Source of the DNA: Kribbella sp. CA-293567
GTDB taxonomy: Bacteria; Actinomycetota; Actinomycetes; Propionibacteriales; Kribbellaceae
Direction: 5' to 3'
Length of the DNA: 64,000 nt
Assembly (NCBI RefSeq): GCF_027627575.1
Contig: NZ_CP114065.1
Location: forward strand, 3,410,001 to 3,474,000
Positions 30,910-36,900 of the stretch are shown here, in pieces; the first letter of the stretch is position 1; each line of letters opens with the position of its first letter. The position numbers and the translations under genes are program-made. Under the pieces are notes generated by a model. The model did not search any database, was not told the origin of the DNA, and was given only the letters and a program-made list of their open reading frames with translations.

Positions 30910-33900
30910 ATGAGGACCATGGCTGAGAATTCGATCGTCCGTCTGCCGCTGTCGGTCGCCCAGACCAGCGTCTGGTACGCCCACCAGCTCGACCAGTCCG
31001 GGCACCGCTACACCATCGGCGAGTGCGTGGAGATCGACGGGCCCGTCGACCCCGGGCTCTTCGAGCAGGCCTGGCGCCGGCTCGCCACCGAGGCCGAGGC
31101 CGGCCGGATCGATGCTGTCAGCAACGATTCGGCCGGTGGCCTGTGGCAGGACCTGCGCGCCGAGCCGGCCGAGCCGGTGGTCCGGCACGTCGACGTCAGC
31201 ACGGAGGCCGACCCGCGGGCCGCCGCCTTCGCCTGGATGCGGACCGACCTGGCCCGTCCGGTGGACCTGACCGCCGGCGGACTCACCGGAACCGTGCTGT
31301 TCACGGTCTCCGGCGAACTGTCGATCTGGTACCAGCGCGGCCACCACGTCGCCTTCGACGGCTACTCGGGCGGACTGATGGCCAAGCGCCTCGCCGACCT
31401 GTACGCCGACCTGCTGCACGGCCGCCCGTTCGGCGACTCCCCGTTCGGAACGCTGGCCGAGCTGATCGCGGAAGAGCGTGAGTACCGCGACTCCGAGGCA
31501 TTCGTTGCCGATCGCAACTACTGGCTCGGGCAGCTGGACGGCCTGCCCGACCCGATCCGGCTCAGCCGCCGTCCGGCGGGACCGGACCGCTCGAACGACG
31601 TACCGCACCGCAGCTCCGGCCGACTGGATGCCGCGGGCACCGACGCGCTGCGCAAGGCGGCCAGGTCGGCCGGTACGCACTGGTCGGTGTGGTCCATCGC
31701 GGTCACCGCCGCCTATCTGCACCGCGTGACCGGCCAGACCGACCTGATCCTGACCCTCCCGGTGACGGCGCGAACCACCCGGCTGGCACTCGCCACCCCC
31801 GGCATGTTGTCGAACCATGTCCCGCTGCGGGTCACCGTGCGGCCGCGGCAGAGTCTGGCCGAGCTGGTCCCGGTGGTCACCGAGGCGCTGCGCGGTGCGC
31901 TCAAGCACCAGCGGTACCGCCTGGAAGACATCCGGCAGGACCTGGGAATCCCCGCGGACGGCACTGGTCTGCAGGGCCCGATGCTCAACGTGATGGCCTT
32001 CAACCAGGACCTCCGGTTCGGCGGCCACGGCACCACCCTGCACAACCTGTCGCACGGCGCGGTCGACGACCTCGCCATCGCCGTGTACGACGGCGGCGAC
32101 GGGCTGCGGGTCGATCTCGACGGCAGCACGGACCGCTACACCGCAGACGAACTCGACAACCACCGCACGCGGTTCCTGCGGTTCCTCGAGCAGGTCGTCG
32201 CTTCGCCGGACCGCGCTGTCGGCGATGTGGAGCTGATCTCGGCGGAGGAGCGCCGCAAGGTGCTGGTCGACTGGAACCAGACCTCGACGCCGATCGACAC
32301 CCGCTCCCTGGCGGACCTCTTCGAGGCTCAGGTACGGCGGACCCCGCAGGCGGTGGCGCTGCGGTACGAAGAGACCGAGCTGACCTACGCCGAGCTGAAC
32401 CGGCGGGCCAACCAGTTCGCGCACCACCTGATCGCCGAGGGGGTCGGACCCGAGCAGGTGGTCGGCCTGGCGCTGCCGCGATCGATCGAACTGCTGGTCG
32501 CGATGTACGCCGTCGTCAAGACGGGCGCGGCGTACCTGCCGATCGATCTGGGCTATCCCGGCGAGCGGATCGCCTTCATCCTCGACGACGCGGCTCCCGC
32601 GCTGCTGATCACCGACCGCGGCGTGGCACCCGAAGGTGTCCGGGTCCTGCTGACCGGCGACGAGCTGGACGAACTGGTCCGGGCGCAACCGGACACCGAT
32701 CCGACCGACGCCGAGCGGACCGCGGTCCTGACGCCCGAGCACCCGGCCTACCTGATGTACACCTCCGGCTCGACCGGGCGGCCGAAGGGCGTGCTCGTCC
32801 CGCACGCCGGAGTGGTCAACCGGCTGCTGTGGATGCAGTCGGAGTACCGGCTCGACCCGAGCGACCGGCTGCTGCAGAAGACACCGATGAGCTTCGACGT
32901 GTCGGTCTGGGAGTTCTTCTGGGGACTCCAGGTCGGGGCCGGCCTGGTGATCGCGAAGCCGGACGGGCACCGCGATCCGGCGTACCTGGCGCGGCTGATC
33001 CAGGACGAAGGTGTCACGACGGTGCACTTCGTGCCGTCGATGCTGGCCGGGTTCCTGGCCGAGCCCGCTGCCGGTGACTGCACCGGTCTGCGCCGGGTGT
33101 TCTGTTCCGGCGAGACGCTGCCGACCGAGCTGGCCGAGGAGTTCAGGCACCGGCTGCCCGACGTACCGCTGCACAACCTGTACGGGCCGACCGAAGCCTC
33201 CATCGACGTCTCCTACTGGCAGCACGCGAGTCAGACGGCCAGCACCCTGCCGCAGATGTTCGCCGAGCAGGTCGCGCGGATGCCGGATGCCCTGGCGGTC
33301 CTCGACGGTGAGCGCCGGTTGACCTACGCCGAGCTGGACGCCGAGACGAACCGCCTCGCCCGATTGCTACTGGCGCACGGCGCCGGACCCGAGCAGTACG
33401 TCGCTGTCGCGCTGCCGAGCTCCGCGGAGTTGCTGATCGCGTTGCTTGCAGTGGTCAAGTCGGGGGCCGCGTACCTGCCGTTGGGTCTGGACCACCCGGT
33501 CGAGCGGACCCGACAGGTCCTGGAAGACGCGCGACCCGCAGTACTGGTCGCGGCGGGTTCCACGCCGGCCGGCTTCGAGGGAACGACGATCCTGCTGGAT
33601 TCGGCCGAGACGCTGAAGCTGTTGCAGGACCTACCGGTCACCGGGCTCAAGCCCGAGGTGGCGGTGGCGGCCGGCAGCCCGGCGTACTTGCTCTACACGT
33701 CCGGCTCCACCGGCCGGCCGAAGGGTGTTGTGGTCGAGCATCGTGCTCTCGGCCAGTACCTGCGCTGGGTCGGCCAGGCCTATCCGGGCCTCAGCGGGCA
33801 GACGCTGCTGCACTCGCCGGTGACCTTCGACCTGACGGTCACCACGATGTTCGGTGCCTTGGTGAGTGGTGGTTGCGTACAGGTGGGCGCGGTGGACGCC

Positions 33901-36900
33901 GATTCGGACGCGGTCACGTTCCTGAAGGCGACCCCGACGCATCTGCCGATGCTGGAGGAGTGGCCCGGCGACCGGTTCGGCGCCGGTGAGTTGCTGGTCG
34001 GTGGCGAGAACCTGACCGGTGGTGCCCTCACCGCCTGGCGTGCAGCGCACCCGGACGTGACCGTGGTGAACGAGTACGGCCCCACCGAGGCGACCGTCGG
34101 CAGTGTCGAGTACCGGTTGCGGCCAGGGGAGGAGACCCCGGCCGGCTCGGTCCCGATCGGCCGTCCGGTCTGGAACACCCAGGTTTACGTGCTGGACGAC
34201 AACCTTGCGCCGGTCCCGCCGGAGTTCGCGGGAGAGCTCTATCTGGCCGGCGTGCAGCTGGCCCGCGGCTACCTGAACCGCCCGGACCTGACCGCCGAGC
34301 GTTTCGTGGCGAACCCGTACGGCGCGCCCGGCAGCCGGATGTACCGCACCGGCGACGTGGTCCGCTGGAACGCGGACGGCGTGCTGGAGTACCTCGGCCG
34401 CACCGACGACCAGGTGAAGATCCGCGGCTTCCGGATCGAGCTCGGCGAGATCGAGGCGGCCCTGCTCCGCCGGCCAGGGATCGGCCAGGCCGCGGCGGTG
34501 GTGCACCGAAGCTCGGGCGGCGACCAGCGGATCGTTGCCTATGTCGTTGCTGACGGCATCGAGCTGGACGGCGCCGAGGTCCGGACCGCGGTCGCGGCCC
34601 GGCTGCCGGAGTACATGGTGCCGAGCCTGGTGATGCAGCTCGATGACCTACCGGTGACTCCGAACGGCAAGCTGGACCGCAAGGCGCTGCCGGAGCCGGA
34701 CTTCGGTGCGCTGGTCACCTCGCGCGGACCCCGCACGCCGGAGCAGGAGATCCTCTGCGGCCTGTACGCCGAACTGCTGGACCTCGACCGGGTCGGCATC
34801 GACGACAGCTTCTTCGCGCTCGGCGGCAACTCGCTGACCGCGACCCGGCTGACCAGCCGGATCCGGGCCGCACTGGGTGCCGACCTCGGGGTCCGTGCCG
34901 TGTTCGAGCACCCGACGGTGGCCGGCCTGTCCGCGCAGCTGACCGGGTCGGAGCCCGAGCGCCCGGCGCTGACGCCGTACGAGCGGACCGAAAGGGTGCC
35001 GTTGTCCTTCGCCCAGCGGCGGCTGTGGTTCATGAACCGCTTCGAGGGGCCGTCGGCGACCTACAACAACGCGTTCGCCGTGACCCTGGCAGGCGAGCTC
35101 GACGTCGAGGCACTGCGGGTCGCCCTCACCGATGTGGTCGAGCGGCACGAGACGCTGCGCACGGTCTTCGCCGACGAGGACGGAACTCCGCACCAAGTGG
35201 TGCTGCCGCCCTCGGTGGCACTCGACGTGGTGCCGGCCGACGGCGACCTTGACGCCCAACTGGTGCGGGGAGCGGCGTACGAGTTCGACTTGAGTGTCGA
35301 GCCGCCGCTGCGGACCGTCCTCTTCGAAGTTGCCGAGGACAACCACGTGTTGCTGGTGACCGTGCACCACATCGCCTGTGACGGCTGGTCCACGACACCG
35401 ATGGCTCGGGATGTCGCCACTGCCTACGCCGCCCGAGCAGCGGGTGCTCCTCCGGAGTGGACTCCGCTGCCTGTCCAGTACGCCGACTACGCCCAGTGGC
35501 AGCGGGATCTCCTGGGGGACGAGAGCGACCCGGACAGCCGCGCTCGGCGACAGGTCGAGTACTGGACTCAGCAGTTGGCCGGTCTGCCCGACCAGCTGGA
35601 GTTGCCCACGGATCGGCCGCGGCCGGCCGTGGCGGGCAACCGGGGCGACGTCGTACCGGTGGCCGTGCCGTCCGACCTGCACAGTGCGCTGACGAGCGTG
35701 GCCCAGGAGAACCAGGTCAGTCTGTTCATGCTGCTGCAGGCCGCCTTCGCAGCCCTGCTCACCCGGCTGGGCGCGGGCACCGACATCCCCATCGGTACGC
35801 CGAACGCCGGGCGGACCGACGAGGCTCTGGACGAGCTGGTCGGCATGTTCGTCAACCCGCTCGTCCTGCGGACCGACACGTCGGGCGATCCCACCTTCGA
35901 GGAGCTGCTGGCCCGGGTGCGGGAGACGGACCTGTCGGCGTACGCGCACCAGGATCTGCCGTTCGACCGGCTGGTCGAGCTGGTCAACCCGGTTCGCTCG
36001 TCGGCGCGGCACCCGCTGTTCCAGGTCATGATGCCGTTCCAGAGCGGGCCGCCCGCGGCCGTCGAGCTGCCGGGGCTGACCGTGACGCAGGCACCGGTGG
36101 ACTCGGGCATCGCGCAGTTCGATCTACAGCTCTCACTGCGCGACGGTGACGAACTGTCCGGCCACCTGGAGTACGCACTTGACCTGTTCGACCACAGCAC
36201 CGCCGAACGACTGGTGCAGCGGTACTGCCGGGTGCTGGCCCAGGTCGCGGCGGAACCAGCCAGGCGGATCGGCTCGCTGGACATCGTCGACGACGCCGAG
36301 CGCGCGCTGCTGGTTGCCGAGCGCAACGAGACCGCCCGCGAGCTGGACTGGATCACCATCCACGGTCTGGTCGAGCAGCAGGTCGCCCGGACGCCTTCGT
36401 CGGTCGCCGTCTTCGACCACGGCGAGACCCTCACGTACGCCGAACTGAACTCCGCCGCGAACCGGCTGGCCTGGCATCTGCGGGGGCTGGGTGTCGGCCC
36501 GGACTCGGTGGTCGGCGTCCATCTCGACCGCTCGTCCTCCCTCGTGATCGCAGCCCTCGCGGTACTGAAGGCGGGAGGTGTCTACCTGCCACTGGACCCG
36601 GACTACCCGCCGGCCCGGCTCGCGTACCTGGTCGAGGACGCCGACGCCGCGCTGGTGATCAGCCGAAGTGACCTCGTCGCCGCGCTGCCCAAGTCCGACG
36701 CCGGTGTCGTGCTGGTCGACTCCGCCGAGTGGCGGCAGCGTTCCGACGACGAACTGGAGCCGCTGACCGGGCCCGACGACGTCGCCTACCTGATCTACAC
36801 CTCCGGCTCGACCGGGCAGCCGAAGGGCGTCCTGGCCACCCATCGGGGTGCCGTCAACCGGTTCCTGTGGACGCAACGGGCGTACCTGCGGTACACCCGG

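Follow-up and report, generated by a model that had tools for sequence, protein, structure and literature searches.

The NRPS3 gene of Kribbella sp. CA-293567 encodes two adenylation (A) domain cores in tandem: a Ser-type core that ends just past its A5 motif, and an Asn-type core that follows in the same reading frame. By sequence profiles, both flanks of the Asn-type core are Ser-type. So the simplest history would be that an Asn-type core of about 302 residues was inserted into a single Ser-type A domain. We consider it reasonably probable that the insertion occurred between the A5 and A6 motifs, that the Asn core and the Ser-type tail together form the active A domain, and that the Ser core is kept for the sake of the condensation domain C1 or for spacing. 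The double core probably goes back to an ancient, natural swap of domains in which the original part was never removed, and is not the fresh debris of a lost module.

Two adenylation cores in one reading frame

All coordinates refer to the window, by which we mean the 64,000 nucleotides that were analyzed (positions 3,410,001 to 3,474,000 of contig NZ_CP114065.1), and all of the features in this section are on the forward strand. NRPS3 (30910–40725) is a single open reading frame of 3271 amino acids, without a stop or frameshift, and is laid out as C1-[Ser core-Asn core-tail]-T1-C2-A3-T2-E-C4. HMMs find the domains C, A (positions 5–310 of a profile of 502), A (4–500), T, C, A, T, E, and C, in that order. 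The open reading frame and the HMMs confirm the original prediction that a Ser-type core breaks off just past A5 and is followed in frame by an Asn core.

The N-terminal condensation domain, C1 (30943–32229), has an intact HHxxxDG motif (RGHHV[AT]FDGYSGG in six species). Next comes the Ser-type core (32308–33219, residues 467–770), which includes A1–A5 and lacks A6–A10. By alignment, its specificity code is DVWHFSLID (DVWHLSLID in the ortholog from genome G033). The code had been predicted to be DVWHFSLIDK; the first nine positions hold but the final K does not, since K517 belongs to A10, which is absent from the Ser core. This core extends past A5 to EASIDVSYW; there its Ser-type relatives go on and the NRPS3 core ends. 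A short variable linker, QHASQTAS (33220–33243; two amino acids shorter in G033), marks the junction of the Ser-type A5–A6 loop with the pre-A1 sequence of the putative donor. The two parts do meet at a non-homologous point, as had been claimed.

The Asn-type core (33244–34149, residues 779–1080) begins at around residue 779 (TLPQMFAEQ) and runs from pre-A1 to A5 and the A5–A6 loop. It has the code DLTKLGEVG; the full code of the second A domain, recomputed by alignment, is DLTKLGEVGK, the same as predicted. It is followed by the A6–A10 tail (34150–34719, residues 1081–1270), the carrier domain T1 (34729–34947, with the motif FFALGGNSL), the condensation domain C2 (34996–36312), and the adenylation domain A3 (36358–37845, code DVGYLGQIDK).

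The tail behind the Asn core appears to be Ser-type

We built Ser-versus-Asn log-odds profiles from 54 Ser domains and 23 Asn domains from outside the cluster, with leave-one-out controls. Across the six species with the tandem, the core of the second A domain scored −174 to −197 (Asn controls, −204 with a standard deviation of 40), and the A5–A6 loop scored −17 to −31, which is also on the Asn side. From VPIGRP on (A6–A10), each of the six species had a score between +25 and +34. For comparison, tails of the Ser controls scored 34.6 (standard deviation 17.3, n = 54), and tails of the Asn controls scored −5.8 (standard deviation 9.8, n = 23), with a maximum of 19.7. Only 1.8% of 382 other domains had a tail score as high as the window's. 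The best single point for a switch from Asn to Ser was at (S)VPIGRP in 6/6 species.

Other analyses of the tail mostly agree. In a regression across 459 domains, similarity of the tail was better predicted by similarity to the Ser core (t = 8.5) than by similarity to the adjoining Asn core (t = 5.2); as controls, 22 of 23 Asn domains showed the opposite pattern. Of 53 Ser-type domains, 42 have the A6 signature PVWN or PIWN, whereas of the 13 Asn-type domains that were scored outside the cluster, only 3 have PxWN. In a FastTree tree of the tails, the six tails grouped with 11 Ser tails and zero Asn tails (local support 0.947), although trees of the tails have weak resolution and each of the 183 columns contributes only a modest signal. 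An AU test with fast searches, which is rough, rejected an Asn-side placement of the tails (p = 0.011) but did not reject a Ser-side placement (p = 0.054). With a mixture model, noisy searches, and a poorly searched free tree for comparison, the Asn side was not rejected (p = 0.47). Unlike the class profiles, raw identity of the tails does not discriminate: the mean is 0.588 to Ser domains and 0.589 to Asn domains. A Ser tail is not seen in any further Asn-like domain of this cluster. GC3 is a little lower in the insert (0.869 versus 0.916), but as C2 is also low (0.882), we give no weight to the difference.

Judging from these comparisons, the second A domain is chimeric, with A1–A5 and the A5–A6 loop from an Asn-type domain and everything from VPIGRP on from a Ser-type domain. 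The original prediction had described it as a complete Asn A domain, which does not fit the profiles for its C-terminal third (A6–A10). We also noticed an Asn-coded A domain in another Kribbella sequence (L099, 1180–4476) whose tail similarity departs from its own core (t = 4.7 versus 2.6) and which has a long branch; it is possibly another core-swap hybrid.

The tandem is shared by six Kribbella genomes

The window's genome (G000) is 7.6 Mb in a single contig. We found the double-core tandem, with the same breakpoint, in 6 of 38 Kribbella genomes (G000, G007, G018, G037, G033, and G014). The 813-residue region aligns from end to end, without stops, in the five other Kribbella, at 93, 75, 75, 75, and 74% identity. 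The orthologs vary in module 2: there is a single T domain in the window, G007, and G033, and a tandem T in G018, G037, and G014 (A-T-T-E-C, seen in the NRPS3 orthologs at L120 10635–20000, L121 1824–11984, and L125 5562–15776).

Among 298 genomes from the order, only Kribbella genomes have a close match to C1 and the Ser core. Among 395 genomes from the class, the best matches to C1 and the Ser core are ordinary C-A-T modules (41–48% identity). We also searched for the A5-to-A1 fusion outside of Kribbella, but the best candidates from the 395 class genomes (L139 and L150) are normal C-A-T modules that matched via the C-A linker.

We did not find the same tandem at other loci among several hundred A domains, except for a much smaller A fragment in Dyella silvatica (L027, 15125–33982). 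There, a full A domain is preceded by a fragment that matches the first 118 A positions, and a further A domain of this open reading frame lacks the first 122 positions. The cause could be either shuffling in the assembly or transposition of a piece.

The Ser core is under purifying selection

Purifying selection on the Ser core is as strong as on intact domains. Its pairwise dN/dS is 0.063–0.274, which is within the range for C1, C2, A3, and T. Among the close trio G018, G037, and G014, the Ser core is one of the most conserved parts, with 95–96% identity, as compared to 80–81% for the Asn core. Of the 29 columns that form nucleotide motifs or the pocket, 28 are invariant across the six species in the Ser core; the corresponding counts for the domains A2 and A3 are 28 and 27. 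Strongly family-conserved columns are invariant at 46/49 in the Ser core, 44/48 in A2, and 48/49 in A3. So neither dN/dS nor column conservation in the six species gives any sign of relaxed constraint on the Ser core, and on these grounds we reject the view that it is decaying debris or a pseudodomain. Because the same columns serve any A fold, their conservation is no proof of ligand binding or activity.

Of the NRPS3 stretch that we examined, the Asn core evolves fastest. Within that stretch, dN is highest at 33310–33909 (residues 801–1000). Also, when comparing G000 to G007, dS is raised at residues 801–920 (0.82, versus about 0.3–0.5 around it). The high dN and raised dS in the Asn core perhaps reflect repeated exchange of the core for others with the same code.

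Proposed origin and function of the double core

We propose an origin, supported by the tests above, in which the ancestor was an ordinary C-A(Ser)-T module. An Asn-type A1–A5 core would then have been inserted between the A5 and A6 motifs of the resident Ser A domain. The downstream crossover would have been at the conserved VPIGRP motif of A6, where affinity changes abruptly in all six species, as expected from recombination of A cores. The upstream crossover would have been non-homologous, after the resident A5 instead of in the C-A linker or in A1. Because it fell after A5, the old core would have been kept in tandem and not replaced. The parts on either side of the insert seem to come from one A domain, with Ser-type A1–A5 before it and Ser-type A6–A10 after it, and this evidence for an interrupted A domain is of moderate strength. 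The insert itself is an AMP-binding core and not an auxiliary catalytic domain (MT, KR, Ox, or MOx). We did not find a pre-insertion relative, so the order of these events is inferred.

An A core that lacks A7, A8, and A10 cannot form an acyl adenylate or pass it on. In the Ser core, the alpha/beta portion of the fold is present, but A7 (with its ribose-binding Asp), the A8 hinge, and the Lys of A10 are absent, so it should be unable to adenylate. Behind the Asn core come its own loop and a full A6–A10, so it should be part of a working A domain: together with the Ser-type barrel and C-terminal subdomain, it would fold as an active domain that loads Asn onto T1. The Ser core would have been kept because it is C1's native partner and holds C1 at a distance from the working A domain. 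Under our proposal, the module still adds one residue (predicted to be Asn), no residue was dropped from the line, and no loss of a T or C domain is needed. As for the suggestion that the Ser-type remnant is dead, inability to adenylate is very likely, but it is not unneeded debris, as it is old, present in six species, and constrained. A weakness of our proposal is that a pure scaffold would not explain why the P-loop and the Ser pocket are intact.

The structure models bear on the role of C1. C1 and the Ser core resemble EntF in sequence and in fold, in line with the description of C1 as EntF-like. Modeled alone, C1 has a fold close to that of EntF and of starter C domains, and it fits the starter C domains of the CDA and rhizomide synthetases (TM-score by target of about 0.9). 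Given this fold and the HHxxxDG motif, C1 probably acylates the residue of the Asn module. In a model of C1 with the Ser core (from 29 sequences; mean pLDDT of 83), the Ser core has a confident fold (mostly 85–97), but the orientation differs from that of solved C-A modules (rmsd of about 12 Å over both domains), so docking of the Ser core on C1 is a hypothesis. An AlphaFold2 model of the Ser core with the Asn domain, made from three sequences only, had a pLDDT of 42 and was set aside.

Alternative explanations

The original prediction was that a C-A(Ser)-T-C-A(Asn)-T ancestor lost the end of the Ser A domain (A6–A10), the T domain, and the next C domain by an in-frame deletion. The non-homologous upstream junction fits a deletion, the Asn core is related to C-A-T modules, and adjacent Ser and Asn modules are known from other NRPSs (L015, L016, L024, and L062). 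But a deletion predicts that the downstream domain is wholly of the second module's type, and instead we found an Asn core with a Ser-type tail. So the Asn module would have to have already carried a Ser-type A6–A10, which implies an additional, earlier swap of an A core. Furthermore, relatives with the undeleted arrangement, which the original prediction had proposed to look for, were not found in the 38 Kribbella genomes, the 298 genomes from the order, the 395 genomes from the class, or a contig scan. The nearest relatives in this search were 50–60% identical, and no pair was specifically related. The Ser core is conserved in the related clusters of six species, which is one half of what had been named in advance as refuting a deletion, the other half being activity. 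Overall, we disfavor the loss of a module and consider it rather unlikely, although it is the strongest of the alternatives to insertion.

We also considered that the Ser core might still work, either by binding Ser or a nucleotide or by being completed by the tail or in trans, which would yield a dual-specificity or regulated module. This could explain why the P-loop, A5, and Ser pocket columns are as invariant as in A2 and A3, and why close pairs differ less in the Ser core than in the Asn core. However, the Ser core lacks its own A6–A10, family-conserved columns are kept in any A fold, and a lack of detectable relaxation is no proof of activity. We view a working Ser core as improbable.

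Still less probable is that an NRPS that initiated with an A domain was fused to an EntF-like C-A(Ser) fragment. As a unit, C1 and the Ser core are most similar to free-standing C-A-T proteins of EntF's size, from one other genus (47–48% identity). But gain of a front end predicts an Asn-type A6–A10 behind the Asn core, and we found a Ser-type one; also, the relatives of the Asn core stand after C domains. We assign a similarly small chance to a two-core A domain, in which the Ser and Asn cores share one A6–A10 and the upstream core binds a ligand and loads or gates; if true, one module could choose between two residues. Finally, repetitive A domains do collapse in assemblies, but an assembly or sequencing artifact is practically impossible, because the breakpoint is identical in six independently assembled genomes, including single-contig ones, with 7–26% protein divergence. 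The original prediction had likewise argued against a simple assembly collapse.

The gene cluster

The cluster includes SbnA/SbnB-type genes for 2,3-diaminopropionate (Dap), an ornithine-carbamoyltransferase-like gene, TauD-type oxygenases, and a type II thioesterase. Genes at 9434–11433, 25679–26611, 28939–29892, and 40774–41736 of the window are of the SbnA/SbnB type, a carbamoyltransferase (below the ornithine cut-off), and TauD/VioC/GntD-like oxygenases. By analogy, the SbnA/SbnB, carbamoyltransferase, and oxygenase genes are reminiscent of the logic of tuberactinomycins (Dap, ureido-Dap, and a hydroxylated residue). NRPS1 begins with an A domain, and the final domain of NRPS2 belongs to the beta-lactamase family (PBP-type), so the order is likely to be NRPS3-NRPS1-NRPS2. 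The last module of NRPS2 (16618–25665) has a C-like domain with an altered motif (NHVILEG), a T domain (FFELGGYSM), and the beta-lactamase/PBP-type end, without an A domain.

Comparison to known systems

Interrupted A domains and swaps of A cores are both known, but we found no description in the open-licence literature of an A core as the insert at A5–A6 with a conserved host core, nor any precedent there for tandem or adjacent A domains. In the interrupted A domains of TioN, TioS, KtzH, and McyA, an extra domain lies between core motifs; the known inserts are methyltransferases, ketoreductases, oxidases, or monooxygenases at A8–A9, A2–A3, or A4–A5 (PMC11355689, PMC8097286). NRPS3 is similar in that a domain is inserted within one A domain. 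However, its insert is an A core at A5–A6, and it would replace the function of the host instead of adding to it.

Recombination of A cores, or subdomains, was described by Baunach et al. 2021 (PMC8097286) and for wollamide and desotamide (PMC9205934). As in those events, NRPS3 has a donor core on the recipient's A-sub and T, with a breakpoint within the A domain and the native C-A linker kept. But the known events replace the old core, and NRPS3 retains it in tandem. In module 2 of the fungal SidD/Nps6, the dA domain is missing some 290 residues at its N-terminus, and another module loads its T domain (PMC10192304). There too, the assembly line has kept part of an A domain that is incapable of catalysis, but NRPS3 keeps the N-terminal half, with a second core directly after it. 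And although C1 and the Ser core are like those of EntF-type C-A(Ser)-T-TE proteins, NRPS3 is multimodular, has an interrupted A domain, and lacks the TE.

In the double core, we seem to see a frozen intermediate of the kind of A-core swap that is thought to diversify nonribosomal peptides: the new core is in, the old core is left, the C-A and A-sub/T contacts are kept, and the arrangement is maintained across species. It would show, in a natural case, whether a C domain and a T domain can still work together when a whole core has displaced the A domain of that T domain. It also suggests a design for engineering: append a new core after A5 and leave the old one in place.
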